Below, in pieces: positions 3,701 to 61,491 of a stretch of 64,000 bases of DNA. The notes under the pieces were generated by a model. That model was not told the DNA's origin. It was given only the letters and a program-made list of their open reading frames with translations, and searched no databases. The DNA is from Turicibacter bilis (GTDB lineage Bacteria; Bacillota_I; Bacilli_A; MOL361; Turicibacteraceae): positions 1,736,001-1,800,000 of the forward strand of contig NZ_CP071249.1 of the NCBI RefSeq assembly GCF_024499055.1, given 5' to 3'. The position numbers were made by a program, and so were the translations under genes. Every line of letters starts with the position of its first letter. Positions within the stretch are counted from its first letter, which is position 1.

Positions 3701-5233
3701 TTAATGTTTAAAATGACGAACTTTTGTGAAGACCATTGCGATTCCATGTTTATTACATGCATCAATTGAGTCTTGGTCTTTAATTGATCCACCAGGTTGA
3801 ATAATCGCTTTGATTCCATATTTTGCAGCTAATTCGACTGTATCTGACATTGGGAAGAAGGCATCTGACGCTAGGTAAGCCCCTTGTGCTAATGCTCCAG
3901 CTTGTTCTAATGCAATTTTAGCTGATCCAACACGATTCATTTGTCCAGCTCCAACTCCGATTGTCATATCATTTTTAACTAATGTAATGGCATTTGATTT
4001 AACATGTTTACAAACTTGGAATCCGAATAATAATTGTTCTAAGTCTTCTTCCGTTGGTTTAACTTCAGTGACACATTCTAAATCTTCTTTTTTCACTTGA
4101 ACTGTGTCTAACTCTTGAACTAATAATCCACCTTTAACTGAAACTAATTTTTGTCCTGGTTGTAGACGTTGACTCATATCTGTTGTTAATAAGCGAATGT
4201 TCTTCTTTTGTTTTAAAACTTCTAACGCTTCTTCTGTGAAGCTTGGTGCAATGACGATTTCTAAAAAGATTTTATGTAATTCTTCAGCTAATGGCTTCGA
4301 TACTTCACGGTTTAAGGCAACAATTCCACCGAAGATTGATGTTGGATCGGCTTCATAAGCTTTTGCATAAGCTTCTTCAATTGTTGTTCCAAGTCCTACT
4401 CCACATGGATTCATATGTTTAACCGCAACGGCTGCAGCTCCTTCAAACTCTTGTAAAATTTCTAAAGCTGCGTTTGCATCTGAGATGTTATTGTAAGATA
4501 ATTCTTTCCCATGTAATTGCTCACTCGATACAACACTATATGATGGTTGTTGTAATGTTTGATAAAATGCTGCTTTTTGGTGTGGGTTTTCTCCGTAACG
4601 TAACGTTTGCTTTAAGTCATAAGTGACTGTTAGTTTTTCTGGAACTTCTACTTCGTTAATTTCATTAAAATAGTTAGCGATCATCGCATCGTATGCTGCT
4701 GTATGATTAAAAACTTTTCCAGCTAACATTTGACGTGTTTTTAGAGTTGTATTGCCTTGCTCACGAATTTCAGAAATGATTAAATCGTAATCATTTGCAT
4801 CGACAACTACTGTGACATCATTAAAGTTTTTCGCTGCTGAACGTAACATTGATGGTCCACCGATATCGATATTTTCGATTTTATCTTCGTGAGTGGCTTC
4901 AGGGTTTTGAATGGTTTTAGCAAATGGATATAAATTAACACAAACTAAGTCGATGTATTCGATGTTGTTTTGTGTGACTTGTTCTTGATGATGAGCATCG
5001 TCACGTTTAGCTAATAATCCACCATGTACCATTGGGTGTAACGTTTTAACGCGTCCTTCTAAGATTTCTGGAAATCCTGTCACTTCATCAATAGCAATGA
5101 CGTTCATGCCTGCTTCTTCTAATGTTTTCTTTGTTCCTCCAGTTGAGATAATTTCATATCCTAATTCGACTAAGTTTTGAACGAATGATACTAAGTTTGT
5201 CTTGTCTGATACACTAACTAATGCACGTTTCAT
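3701..5233 (-). CDS. purH: bifunctional AICAR transformylase / IMP cyclohydrolase
   Basis: Performs the last two steps to IMP: formylation of AICAR by 10-formyl-THF, then ring closure. It has 510 aa, the usual length. The N-terminal MGS-like cyclohydrolase domain (about 1-150) contains [10 protein letters not shown] and EGRVKTLHP. The C-terminal transformylase domain has [10 protein letters not shown] and KHMNPCGVG, with the Lys-His pair used in catalysis. It needs 10-formyl-THF, whose precursor enzyme is encoded by fhs in this window. An AGGAGG site precedes the ATG. It lies between purN and purD. Confidence 0.98.
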
Positions 5234-5808: not shown

Positions 5809-6830
5809 ACTAATTGAACTCCTTCACTGTCTGTTACTACACCGATGACGTGTGGTTTTTCTCCAGCTTCTGTTAAACTATTCATTGCTTTTTCCACGTC
5901 TTCTGCTGCTACGATGATTGCCATTCCAATTCCCATGTTGAAGATGTTATACATTTCACGCTCATCTAACTTTCCTAATTCTTTTAAATAGTTAAAGATT
6001 GGTGGCATTGGATATGAGTCTTTATTGATTTTCACCCCATGACCAGCCGGTAAAGTACGAGGAATATTTTCATCAAATCCTCCACCTGTAATGTGTGCCA
6101 TTCCATGAACGTCTACCTCTTTTAATAAAGATAAGATTGGTTTAACATAAATTTTTGTTGGAGCTAATACAGCTTCTCCAACTGTCATTCCTAATGATTC
6201 TTCGTATGTGTTTAAATCGATGTTGTTATCTTTGAATAAGATTTTACGGACTAGTGAGTATCCATTTGAGTGAATTCCGCTCGATAATAATCCGATGATG
6301 ACATCACCTGCTTTTACTTTTTCACCTGTGATTAATTGATCTTTTTCAACAACTCCAACAGCAAATCCTGCTAAATCATAGTGGTCTAAGTCATACATAT
6401 CTGGCATTTCAGCAGTTTCTCCACCTATTAAGGCAGCACCTGCTTGTTCACATCCGTCTGCCACTCCTTTAACAATAGCTTCAATTTTTGCAGGCTCATT
6501 TTTTCCAACTGCTACATAATCAAGGAAGTATAATGGTTCTGCCCCTTGTACAACGATGTCGTTAACACACATAGCTACGCAGTCAATTCCAATCGTGTCA
6601 TGAACATCAGCTTTAATAGCAACCATTAATTTTGTTCCAACACCATCTGTTCCTGAAACTAATAAGGGTTGTTTATAGTTTAGGGACGATAAGTCAAACA
6701 TGGCTCCAAAAGCTCCAATTCCAGAGAATACCCCTTTGCGATGTGTTTTTGCTACGTGTTTTTTAATACGGTTAACCGATTCGTAGCCTGCTTCTAAGCT
6801 AACCCCAGATTGTTCATATGCTTTACTCAT
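5805..6830 (-). CDS. purM: phosphoribosylformylglycinamidine cyclo-ligase (AIR synthetase)
   Basis: Closes the imidazole ring: FGAM + ATP to AIR (step 5). At 341 aa it is the standard length. Motifs are [11 protein letters not shown] near the start, [12 protein letters not shown] (ATP and metal site), [14 protein letters not shown], and [13 protein letters not shown] towards the C-terminus, all typical of the PurM/PurL superfamily. It shares that fold with the two synthetase domains of the PurL encoded upstream. An AGGTGG ribosome binding site precedes ATG 6830. It lies between purF (14-nt gap) and purN (overlap). Confidence 0.98.
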
Positions 6831-58139: not shown

Positions 58140-58361
58140 ATGTATACCAATAAAACTGATTTTTATCAAAATGATTACTATTATGATAAGCAGAAACTCA
58201 CATGCTCCAACTTACCTTTAGCAACAGCTTACGTTCGACCACAATCTTACAAAAATTTAAATAGTCCATTTCAAACGCTAAAACAAGGGACTTTTTTTGC
58301 CGATCTTTATGATCCATATAAACCACGAAAAGTATCTAAAGGAGGCCGTTACGATGAGTAA
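58140..58361 (+). CDS. cotJA: spore coat protein CotJA (operon 1)
   Basis: A small inner-coat protein, 73 aa. The CotJA core LPLATAYVRPQSYKNL and LKQGTFFADLYDPY are clear. A Tyr/Asp/Asn-rich N-terminus precedes it. In Bacillus CotJA is needed for CotJC assembly. It starts the operon cotJA-cotJB-cotJC; its end overlaps cotJB by 8 nt. Confidence 0.93.
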   Translation: MYTNKTDFYQNDYYYDKQKLTCSNLPLATAYVRPQSYKNLNSPFQTLKQGTFFADLYDPYKPRKVSKGGRYDE

Positions 58362-58602
58362 AGAAGTACTTCTTAGAAAACTCCAAGCGTTGAACTTGAT
58401 AGCTGTTGATCTTCAACTCTTTCTTGATACTCACCCAGGAAATAAAGAAGCATTAGAAGATTATAGACAAGTCACTAAACAATATCAAAAACTTAGAGAA
58501 GATTATGAATATGAATATGGACCACTTACTAACTTTGGTTATATGACTTCATTTGATCAATATAGTTGGGTTAATGATCCATGGCCTTGGGAACAACGTT
58601 AA
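58354..58602 (+). CDS. cotJB: spore coat protein CotJB (operon 1)
   Basis: An 82-aa coat protein with the family's LLRKLQALNLIAVDLQLFLD helix, THPGNKEAL and the C-terminal DPWPWE motif. AAAGGAGG lies 8 nt before ATG 58354. Translation is coupled to cotJA by overlap. Cytoplasmic in the mother cell, then deposited on the forespore. Confidence 0.94.
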   Translation: MSKEVLLRKLQALNLIAVDLQLFLDTHPGNKEALEDYRQVTKQYQKLREDYEYEYGPLTNFGYMTSFDQYSWVNDPWPWEQR

Positions 58603-58616
58603 GAGGAGATGAGAGT

Positions 58617-59204
58617 ATGTGGATTTATGAAAAAAAATTACAGTATCCAGTCGACATTAAACAACGTGATTTGAGAATGGCGAAAGCCATTTATGAAGAA
58701 TTAGGAGGAGCCGATGGGGAATTATCAGCTTCTATGGAATATCTACAACAACGTTACACAATGCCAACTGGGAAATCAATTGCAACCTTAACTGATATCG
58801 GAACAGAAGAGCTAGCACATCTTGAAATCGTCTCTTCTTTAATTTTTCAATTAACTGCTGGAGCAACAATGGAAGAGATTAAACGTGCTGGTTTTGATGG
58901 AATATATGCTTCACGTGGTACTTCTGTATTCCTAGCTGATCCTGAAAACACACCTTGGACAGCTGCTTATATTGATATGAAAGGTGATCCAGTTGCTGAC
59001 ATCACCTCGAATATGGGGGCTGAACAACGCGCTCGTGCTGGATATGAACACTTACTCGATATGACAACAGATGAAGATGTTAAAAAAGTCCTTTCTTATT
59101 TAAGAGAACGTGAAATTGTTCATTTCCAACGCTTTGGTGAAACACTAGTTCATGTTCAAGAGCACTTAGCTCATGATAAATATTTTTTCAAAGATAGCAA
59201 ATGA
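58617..59204 (+). CDS. cotJC: spore coat manganese-catalase-like protein CotJC (operon 1)
   Basis: A 195-aa protein of the manganese catalase superfamily. MWIYEKKLQYPVDI is the family start. The dimetal ligands are visible in TDIGTEELAHLEIV, EQRARAGYEHLLD and EREIVHFQRFGE (Glu and His in each). It may give the spore coat peroxide resistance. ATG 58617 follows AGAGGAG. It ends at a strong terminator and is about 80% identical by eye to the operon 2 copy. Confidence 0.96.
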   Translation: MWIYEKKLQYPVDIKQRDLRMAKAIYEELGGADGELSASMEYLQQRYTMPTGKSIATLTDIGTEELAHLEIVSSLIFQLTAGATMEEIKRAGFDGIYASRGTSVFLADPENTPWTAAYIDMKGDPVADITSNMGAEQRARAGYEHLLDMTTDEDVKKVLSYLREREIVHFQRFGETLVHVQEHLAHDKYFFKDSK

Positions 59205-59250: not shown

Positions 59251-59288
59251 TTAATACTCGTTCAATGTCACCATTCTAAGCCAATAGA

Positions 59289-59297
59289 CATATTTTA
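59289..59297 (+). promoter_or_regulatory. predicted mother-cell sigma (E/K) -10 element for cotJ operon 2
   Basis: CATATTTTA matches CATANNNTA. It is about 108 nt upstream of the cotJA2 start codon. Transcription would begin near 59304 and include the first exon and intron. Confidence 0.5.
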
Positions 59298-59378
59298 AAT
59301 TAGGCAAGATGATGATGCCTATTAGTTTAAGAAGCTTCATTACTTGGAGGATGTTATGTAGTTTCTTAAACATGTTAT

Positions 59379-59398
59379 ATGGAGGTAATGCCTCCCAT
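59379..59398 (+). promoter_or_regulatory. hairpin sequestering the cotJA2 ribosome binding site
   Basis: The ribosome binding site GGAGG (59381-59385) can pair with CCTCC (59391-59395), just before the ATG at 59397. The ATG in turn lies in the P1 helix of the intron (CCATGT with GCATGG). In the unspliced RNA both site and start codon would be paired. Confidence 0.5.
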
Positions 59399-60637
59399 GT
59401 TCAGAAACGAGCATGGAGTAAGAGATCACTCTTCAACATCCTTTGAATTGCTGGAATTTCCTAAAGCTCATTCAACCACAACGTAAAAGCGAATAGCTTT
59501 AAGCGTGAAGGTGACGAAAGTAGAAAAAATGAATGAGATGGCATATGGTTAAATCCTAAGTGCTAGGACAATGGATCATCAGCAGGTAAGCCTCGAATAG
59601 AGGAAACTTCAACGACTATCCTAAATAGGAGTAGGCTATAAGCGATTGATAGCCGAAGCGGAGGATACCCTTCTACTTTATAAAAGGGTAATGATATAGT
59701 CTGCACTCATATGAAAATATGAGATGTTCTTCAATGAACTGCATGAGTCTAGCGAGCTCATGTGAACAGTGTCAAAACATAGTCGTTTTGATTTGGTGCA
59801 AACGTGATTTATAATCCTTATAATACAACCGTTCAAAATCCAGGGCTTATGCAACCTGGTATGCTACAACAAACTAGTTATCCAGCAGCACAACAATCTT
59901 CTATGCTACAACAATCTAGCTATCCAGTAACCCAACAATCTGTTATGCCTACAGCTGCTTATCCAACTTCAGCAACAACACAATTAGCTAACACAACTGC
60001 TTATCAACCCGTTCAACAAGCATTCCCAGCTGTTCAAGCTGTACCAGTTCCAGCTTGTGGTGTTCCTACTCCGGTTTGTGGAGTTCCAATGGCACAACCT
60101 GTGGTTATTCCTCAACCCGTTCAACAAGTCCAACCGGTTCAACCACAAATTGCTAGCACACAAGCAACGACTGCTCAACATAAAAAAACAACGTATGTTG
60201 AAGCCTATTTAGAACCAGTGGATGCACAGGTTCCATTAATGCAGCCAACTGTTTCAAAAAAAGTTGTTGAGAAAAAAACATATCCTGTAAGTGATGAGAT
60301 TGTTTATGTTGAGCAAAAACCATTAAAAAATTCAACGATGCAAGATTATAACTTATATTTAATGGAAAATGAATATTATTCTGATGATGAACCTAATTAC
60401 AAAAAAACGGTTCATACTACTTATCCACAAGCAAGGGCAGATAAGAAAGGTAGTCCATTAACTTGTGAAAATCTCCCTCTTGCTACAGCTTATGTTCGTA
60501 TGCAACCTTATACTTCCTTAAATAATCCAACTGAAACCTTACAACAAGGAACAGCTTTTAATGAACTTTATGACGTCTATACTCCTCAAAAAGTTGCTCA
60601 ACCTAACATCTTTATGTTAAAAGGGGGATGTCGATAA
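59397..60637 (+). CDS. CotJA-domain spore coat protein with Pro/Gln-rich extension, split by a group I intron (operon 2)
   Basis: The proposed coding sequence joins 59397-59400 to 59805-60637: ATG-T plus TG-ATT gives M-L-I-Y-N-P-Y, 278 aa. Without splicing, the ATG reads 29 codons into the intron to a TAA at 59484. A GTG at 59804 could start the second exon but has no ribosome binding site. The first ~115 residues are low-complexity Gln/Pro/Ala/Val repeats (LQQTSYPAAQQSS, VPVCGVP-like). A charged middle follows, then a CotJA core, LPLATAYVRMQPY and LQQGTAFNELYD. At 278 aa it is about four times the size of ordinary CotJA. Its stop overlaps cotJB by one base. Confidence 0.8.
59401..59804 (+). 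ncRNA. group I self-splicing intron, IA-like, no internal ORF
   Basis: The full catalytic core is visible. P1: CCATGT (exon) with GCATGG at 59411-59416, with U-G at the splice site. P2: AAGAG/CTCTT. P3: ATCCTT (59438) with GAGGAT (59661). P4: TGCTG (59449) with CAGCA (59580). P5: CTCATTC with GAATGAG. P6a: CCTC/GAGG. P7: GACTA (59614) with TAGTC (59697). P8: ACCCTT/AAGGGT. P9: CTCATAT-GAAA-ATATGAG, plus three further 3' hairpins. AACGACTATCC and GATATAGTCTGC are near-identical to the phage T4 td intron core, suggesting subgroup IA2. The terminal G is 59804. The exact 3' site and P10 are less certain than the core. Confidence 0.88.
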
Positions 60638-60885
60638 TGAATAAAAAACAATTTTTATTACAACTTCAAGCGGTTAACTTAATTGCAGTTGATTTACATC
60701 TTTTCCTAGATACACATCCGGATAATAAAGAAGCTTTAAATGATTATGAAAAAGTATCTAAACAATATCAATCACTAAAACAGCAATATGAACAACAATT
60801 TGGTCCCCTTGTGAGTTTTGGATATTCTTCAAGTGTTGAACATTACAAATGGGTTGATGAACCTTGGCCTTGGCAAAATAAATAA
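60637..60885 (+). CDS. cotJB: spore coat protein CotJB (operon 2)
   Basis: An 82-aa paralogue of the operon 1 CotJB: LLQLQAVNLIAVDLHLFLD, THPDNKEAL and DEPWPWQNK. GGGGG lies 9 nt before ATG 60637; the ATG at 60628 overlaps that site. It overlaps the upstream stop by one base (TAATG), implying coupling to the intron-split gene, so splicing may also affect its translation. Confidence 0.93.
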   Translation: MNKKQFLLQLQAVNLIAVDLHLFLDTHPDNKEALNDYEKVSKQYQSLKQQYEQQFGPLVSFGYSSSVEHYKWVDEPWPWQNK

Positions 60886-60900
60886 GGAGGAGTTTAGACT

Positions 60901-61491
60901 ATGTGGATTTATGAAAAAAGACTGCAATTCCCAGTAGATATCAAAAAACGTGATCCAAAAATGGCAAAAGCAATTTTTGATGCATTAGGTGGTGCTGATG
61001 GTGAATTAGCTGCTTCAATGGAATATCTTCAACAACGTTATAGTATGCCAACTGGTCAATCAATTGCAACTTTAACGGATATCGGAACTGAAGAACTAGC
61101 GCATCTTGAAATTGTTTCATCAATGATTTATCAACTAACTGATGGAGCAAGTATTGATGAGCTTAAAAAAGCTGGTTTAGATGGTGTTTATGCTGGACGT
61201 GGAACAAGTATCTTCTTAGCAGATCCTGAAGGAACACCTTGGACAGCTGCTTATATTGATATGAAAGGTGATCCAGTAGCAGATATTACATCAAATATGG
61301 CTGCTGAACAACGCGCTCGTGCGGGTTATGAACATTTACTAGATTTAGCAACGGATGATGAAGTCGTTCGTGTTTTATCTTATTTACGCGAACGAGAAGT
61401 TGTTCACTTCCAACGTTTTGGTGAAACATTAATGCATGTTCAAGATTTCTGTGCAACAAATCGTCATTTCTTTATGGATGATCATCACTAA
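60901..61491 (+). CDS. cotJC: spore coat manganese-catalase-like protein CotJC (operon 2)
   Basis: A 196-aa paralogue of the operon 1 CotJC with the same dimetal motifs: TDIGTEELAHLEIV, EQRARAGYEHLLD and EREVVHFQRFGE. An excellent GGAGGAG precedes the ATG. The C-terminus ends in a His/Asp-rich MDDHH. It closes operon 2. Confidence 0.96.
   Translation: MWIYEKRLQFPVDIKKRDPKMAKAIFDALGGADGELAASMEYLQQRYSMPTGQSIATLTDIGTEELAHLEIVSSMIYQLTDGASIDELKKAGLDGVYAGRGTSIFLADPEGTPWTAAYIDMKGDPVADITSNMAAEQRARAGYEHLLDLATDDEVVRVLSYLREREVVHFQRFGETLMHVQDFCATNRHFFMDDHH

Follow-up and report, generated by a model that had tools for sequence, protein, structure and literature searches.

The window (the whole 64,000-nucleotide stretch of Turicibacter bilis DNA that was analysed) holds two tandem cotJABC sets, at 58140-59204 and 59804-61491, and only the second has an intron and a long Gln/Pro-rich extension on its CotJA. 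The upstream set ends at a terminator-like hairpin, so the intron probably lies in an independent second operon. An earlier note on this DNA had described a complete, intact and ORF-less group I intron at a cotJA-type spore-coat gene, and these points were all borne out, with the intron lying upstream of that gene. The features of the second operon, all on the + strand, were as follows.

59270-59297, +, sigma-K-like promoter AC-N17-CATATTTTA, the presumed mother-cell promoter of the operon
59299-59385, +, 5' leader and exon 1, with hairpins at 59301-59321 and 59325-59371 and GGAGGA (59346-59351) in the second loop
59381-59385, +, GGAGG, which ends exon 1 and forms both the 5' half of the Shine-Dalgarno sequence and the 5' strand of P1 (empty site L011)
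59386-59796, +, group I intron, IA2-like with group-B IStron-type ends (starts U, ends GG), 411 nt, ORF-less (RF00028, empty sites, covariation)
59390-59395, +, internal guide sequence GCCTCC, the 3' strand of P1, pairing with GGAGGU at 59381-59386
59396-59415, +, P2, which the earlier note had taken for P1 (100% paired, two-sided changes across the alignment)
59438-59445 and 59659-59666, +, the strands of P3, forming a pseudoknot with P7
59614-59618, +, P7 5' strand GACTA, pairing with TAGTC at 59697-59701 (invariant in 8/8 aligned introns)
59619-59654, +, P7.1 and P7.2, additional helices characteristic of subgroup IA (100% paired, every variable pair covarying)
59706-59763, +, P9, P9.1 and P9.2 (all three with two-sided covariation)
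59772-59791, +, possible 3' terminal hairpin TCAAAAC/GTTTTGA adjoining the 3' splice site (perfect by eye in the window and G001, misaligned or absent elsewhere)
59797-59798, +, UG, the 3' half of the Shine-Dalgarno sequence and the first bases of exon 2
59804-60637, +, cotJA-type coat gene with a Gln/Pro-rich N-terminal extension, start GTG 59804 (PF11007, E 5e-8; the G002 ortholog starts TTG-ATT-TAT-AAT at the same point)
60628-60885, +, cotJB (PF12652, E 1.8e-28)
60901-61491, +, cotJC, Mn-catalase-like (PF05067, E 3e-50)

The search with the Rfam group I model, which the earlier note had suggested, gave one RF00028 match in the 2.79-Mb genome, at 59391-59723, with a score of 82.7 bits (E 1.5e-20; gathering score 50). 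RF00028 also exceeded its cut-off in three further genomes of the genus. A hand-written structure that included the P3/P7 pseudoknot was scored on eight aligned introns, where 91.3% of cells were paired and 37 pairs showed two-sided changes, distributed over 11 of the 16 helices. The covariation score was 0.343, against 0.164 in shuffled alignments (0/500 as high) and 0.04-0.09 when the structure was slid along the alignment. P3 to P9.2 were paired, with most helices covarying, and the catalytic core with its P3/P7 pseudoknot and P4-P6 was present; the group I intron is real and well conserved. For P1, which is nearly invariant and whose exon strand was shifted by the aligner, covariation was uninformative. 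The intron belongs to subgroup IA, and probably to IA2, by its P7.1 and P7.2 between P7 and the 3' strand of P3. T4 td has an IA-type core with P7.1 and P7.2, and the window intron resembles td-type IA2 introns in this respect; however, its host site lies in a 5' UTR and not in coding sequence, its exon 1 ends in G and not U, and it has no homing endonuclease gene. No ORF of its own was found within the 411 nt, and the IS607/IS605 transposase and TnpB genes were absent.

The loop of P2 (L2, AAACGA at 59405-59410) is complementary to UCGUUU at 59783-59788, and both sides change in G001 (AAACAA/UUGUUU). This could be a tertiary contact; it was reduced to 4 bp in G004 and was absent from the cotZ copy described below.

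Four other genomes of the same genus were compared with the window. G001 and G004 carried the intron at the same cotJA position. The cotJA of G002 had no intron, and its empty site (L011) reads TATGGAGGTGCAAACCG-TTG-ATT-TAT-AAT (in shorter forms GGAGGTGCAAACCG-TTG-ATT, GGAGGTGCAAACC and GGAGGTGCAAACCGTTG). The window, with the intron in brackets, reads TATGGAGG-(TAATGCC...GATTTGG)-TGCAAAC-GTG-ATT-TAT-AAT, and the comparison therefore places the intron at U59386-G59796, between GGAGG and TG. The cotZ gene (PF10612) of G002 carried a related intron at GGAGG^..^TGAGCTTATG (the caret marks an intron boundary or insertion point), and cotZ was free of it in G000, G004 and G001, which read GGAGGTGAGGATATG, GGAGGTGAGGATATG and GGAGGTGATTATATG, respectively (core forms GGAGGTGAG/GGAGGTGAT in the three species). 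As read from these alignments, cotZ is a second, independent site giving the same boundary at the same point of the Shine-Dalgarno sequence. These four empty sites moved the intron from the 59401-59804 of the earlier note to 59386-59796.

The start codon, also by alignment, is GTG 59804, seven nucleotides after the intron, and it matches the TTG of the G002 ortholog. The earlier note had placed the intron directly after a start ATG, with ATG-T joined to TG-ATT; instead, the whole reading frame lies downstream of the intron, it is the Shine-Dalgarno sequence that is split (GGAGG^UG), and the supposed exon end CCATG-T is intron sequence. The comparison with an intron-less relative, another check put forward in that note, went against its start codon, as G002 has no upstream ATG and its gene begins TTG-ATT. 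The pairing CCATGT/GCATGG, named there as P1, is P2: it is found again in the intron of L005, which lies at an unrelated gene, and in IStrons of clostridia (L026 and the majority of L043-L068). Since the same P2 occurs in the cotZ intron and in IStrons of unrelated genes, it cannot contain the start codon of cotJA.

By sequence, GGAGG(U)/(G)CCUCC is the actual P1, in which U59386.G59390 occupies the splice point. Its loop is very short, and no clear P10 was seen. The guide GCCTCC did not vary among the cotJA copies, nor in the cotZ copy or those clostridial IStrons whose insertion point follows GGAGG or GAGG. The U59386.G59390 pair can form, yet by the empty site this U already belongs to the intron, as it does in group-B IStrons, and G59796 is the last intron base. 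For the group-B IStron BcISt1, sequencing of spliced RNA showed that splicing in vivo occurs after G, with U as the first intron base (PMC4227781). An exon 1 ending in G and an intron starting with U, otherwise unusual, are the norm among group-B IStrons. Splicing after U59386, as the canonical U.G rule would have it, was rejected: its junction mismatches the empty site, and the BcISt1 data favour G^U. A 3' site after G59782, with a perfect 6-bp L2 pairing (AAACGA/UCGUUU), was also rejected, as the preceding base is not G in other species and the gene would be out of frame.

Some 21 clostridial elements were picked up by a scan for the P1-P2 string; they begin with GG^TAACTAACAGTTAC or a near variant of it and have the same guide sequence, and several contain a TnpB-like motif. 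Their insertion point was always after GGAGG or GAGG. Comparison of copies within genomes fixed the 3' end CAACGG^ for eight of them; removal restored long open frames in five and a shorter frame in one (L059), and the remaining two split Shine-Dalgarno sequences, of a ferredoxin gene (AAGGAGG^TGTGTTACT-ATG) and of csrA (AAGGAGG^CAGAATA-ATG). Splitting of Shine-Dalgarno sequences is thus recurrent because of the GGAGG target. The string matches at L042, L061, L064 and L065 had no intron core and were set aside as chance. The exact P3-P4 string was not found in the genome and viral contigs searched, and the phage and plasmid matches that were inspected proved to be phage introns or IStrons, none of them a close copy.

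Among these elements, the csrA copy (L054, Clostridium sp. KNHs214) is an IStron with a TnpB-like motif that starts at 4125, ahead of the csrA start at 6158; it occupies the last codons of an upstream fliW-like gene and the csrA Shine-Dalgarno sequence, and translation of csrA may depend on its splicing. The same strain has two shortened IStrons of about 0.9 kb, apparently without IS genes (L046 and L062), the first of which splits the ferredoxin Shine-Dalgarno sequence. A RAGATH-18 RNA (72.4 bits) was found at L026:3207-3268, just downstream of the TnpB gene of an Acetoanaerobium IStron.

Like the group-B IStrons (BcISt1, CbISt1/4 and the clostridial elements), the window intron follows a 5' exon ending in GG, starts with U, ends in GG and has a homologous core, and its empty sites (GGAGG^TG) follow the group-B insertion rule, after GG with U first. 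It shares with the clostridial GGAGG-targeting IStrons the guide sequence and P2 (GCCTCCCATGTT..GCATGGAG). It differs from group-B IStrons in having no TnpA/TnpB genes, neither the TAACTAACAGTTAC 5' end nor the CAACGG 3' end, and a short P1 loop; the group-B 3' end CGG occurs only in G004, with UGG in the window and AGG in G001 and the cotZ copy.

Bacterial group I introns have mostly been described within genes, and the earlier note regarded this one as unusual, which holds only in part. A survey (Tourasse et al., 2014; PMC4227781) listed, for two Turicibacter strains, a group IA2 intron whose homing site is GGAGG; the surveyed intron resembles that of the window in this GG-ending homing site, in its similarity to group-B IStrons and in the lack of an IS component, and is probably the same intron or family. 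Splitting of the Shine-Dalgarno sequence, as the Clostridium IStrons show, is likewise not confined to this genus. The text of the survey is silent on a Shine-Dalgarno sequence, on the host gene and on any connection with the spore coat. Within the open-licence literature, a scope outside which most subscription journals lie, three points seem to be new: that the intron is located in spore-coat Shine-Dalgarno sequences, that P1 has a double role, and that the same splitting recurs among IStrons.

We then come to the reading that we prefer, with a probability of about 0.87: a stand-alone, GGAGG-targeting, group-B IStron-like intron sits inside the Shine-Dalgarno sequence of the second cotJA-JB-JC operon, and its splicing would gate translation. 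In the primary transcript, the guide GCCUCC would pair with GGAGG(U) to form P1, which would both set the 5' splice site and hide the Shine-Dalgarno sequence, at that stage separated from the GTG start by more than 400 nt. Self-splicing initiated by GTP would then cut after GGAGG and after G59796 and join the exons, with the predicted junction GGAGG^UGCAAACGUG (GGAGG^UGCAAAC). The product, GGAGGUG-CAAAC-GUG, would have its Shine-Dalgarno sequence released from P1, completed and at full strength. Judged by sequence only, splicing creates the ribosome-binding site from GGAGG and UG.

In spliced RNA, GGAGGUG can pair with the 16S tail over 7 bp, at -13.0 kcal/mol. Only GGUG stands before the start in unspliced RNA, with -5.2 kcal/mol in the window, -5.4 in G004, -6.3 in G001 and -8.5 at cotZ. 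In the fold of the unspliced RNA, four of the five GGAGG bases had an unpaired probability near 0; in a simple model of the spliced leader, the Shine-Dalgarno sequence was partly folded. Because a residual GGUG remains 5 nt ahead of the start codon, some translation of unspliced RNA may persist, most of all at cotZ. The claim of the earlier note that splicing is needed to make the protein stood in so far as removal is probably needed for good expression, but the frame is not split and leaky translation of unspliced RNA is possible. Splicing-gated translation is thus strongly implied by the sequence, from which we infer splicing itself and the size of its effect on translation.

The arrangement resembles the c-di-GMP-II riboswitch/allosteric group I ribozyme of C. 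difficile (Lee et al., 2010, via PMC3984707), which is a 5'-UTR group I intron whose splicing puts a ribosome-binding site beside the start codon; unlike it, the window intron showed no detectable c-di-GMP aptamer and gave no sign of a ligand or of a second, alternative 5' splice site. It suggests a route by which such an arrangement could originate, with an intron in the Shine-Dalgarno sequence first and a sensor later. The motif targeted by this mobile intron family is also the Shine-Dalgarno core, so that insertion would silence the ribosome-binding site and splicing would restore it exactly. The intron is also a natural, aptamer-free candidate for splicing-gated translation in sporulation genes, for which the intron-free orthologs are controls.

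The leader upstream of the intron (about 88 nt) folded with an MFE of -22.9 kcal/mol (z -2.58) and showed seven pairs with two-sided changes among four species. It occurred once per genome and always before cotJA, including the intron-less cotJA of G002 (L011:1173-1259), and belongs to the gene rather than to the intron. With GGAGGA in its apical loop it resembles, by analogy, an mRNA stabiliser of the STAB-SD type. A motif AC-N16/17-CATANNNTA was read by eye just before the leader in 4/4 species; across the window alone, sigma-K-like matches (five found, 2.65 expected) were no better than chance.

Whether the intron does more than splice divides the remaining explanations. The one we lean towards is a neutral passenger, with constitutive and efficient splicing, no effect on the timing or level of the coat gene, and a Shine-Dalgarno site that is occupied only as a GGAGG target. 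This is compatible with the splicing step of the preferred reading and denies a regulatory role. Relatives insert after GGAGG or GAGG wherever present, often in coding sequence, any intron obliged to splice would be expected to be conserved, and a ligand-binding aptamer was not found. However, three species have retained the intron at one site since they separated long ago, the two stand-alone sites seen in the genus both lie in spore-coat Shine-Dalgarno sequences, and P1 hides the Shine-Dalgarno sequence, so some dependence of expression on splicing would follow.

It is unlikely, on our estimate, that the intron has been domesticated as a mother-cell checkpoint acting through splicing, in which P1 closes the Shine-Dalgarno sequence and splicing tuned late in sporulation times CotJA (CotZ in another species), and that across Bacillota GGAGG-homing introns have repeatedly made splicing-gated switches of Shine-Dalgarno sequences. 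Any active control in the mother cell is speculative. Slightly less likely again is a regulated switch, in which a ligand, GTP, Mg2+ or a factor of the mother cell would adjust splicing and the conserved leader would be the sensor, much like the C. difficile c-di-GMP ribozyme. The architecture is like that of splicing-created ribosome-binding sites (PMC3984707), and the leader directly upstream is structured and covarying, but it is present equally in G002 before the intron-less cotJA, and inspection of the cotZ intron found no comparable leader. No Rfam riboswitch exceeded its threshold, a search that an undescribed aptamer class would escape. The leader was rejected as an intron-coupled riboswitch, as it matched no Rfam family and is present where the intron is absent. 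The model of the earlier note, with an intron running from after ATG-T (59400) to G59804 and a fusion of ATG-T with TG-ATT that makes the start of the frame, is very improbable: CCATGT/GCATGG can form a P1-like helix with U.G, the fusion is in frame and the Rfam model likewise aligns this helix as P1, but after splicing the RNA would still have the GGAGGTAATGCCTCC hairpin on its Shine-Dalgarno sequence, and the P2 recurrence and the G002 start given above both oppose it.

Within the genus, three species had the intron at cotJA (the window, G001 and G004), and the fourth (G002) had the related intron at the cotZ Shine-Dalgarno sequence. Between the three species, intron identity was 87-89%, whereas the fourfold sites of cotJC, near saturation, were 41-47% identical; this shows that the ribozyme is constrained. 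Identity of the flanking leader was 65-75%, with thus no sign of a recent co-converted tract. G002 was an outlier for the CotJA and CotZ proteins but not for cotJC DNA. These data fit a single ancient gain at cotJA by the common ancestor of the three species, with a separate cotZ insertion in the G002 line; alternatively, the cotJA intron may have been lost in G002.

Other group I introns were also seen. The further RF00028 matches in G002 and G004 were several unrelated introns with GIY-YIG-like ORFs in an apparent anaerobic ribonucleotide reductase gene (L036-L039). In G003 (L006), an IStron-like group I intron with a TnpB-like ORF interrupts an apparent DUF188/YqxD-type gene.
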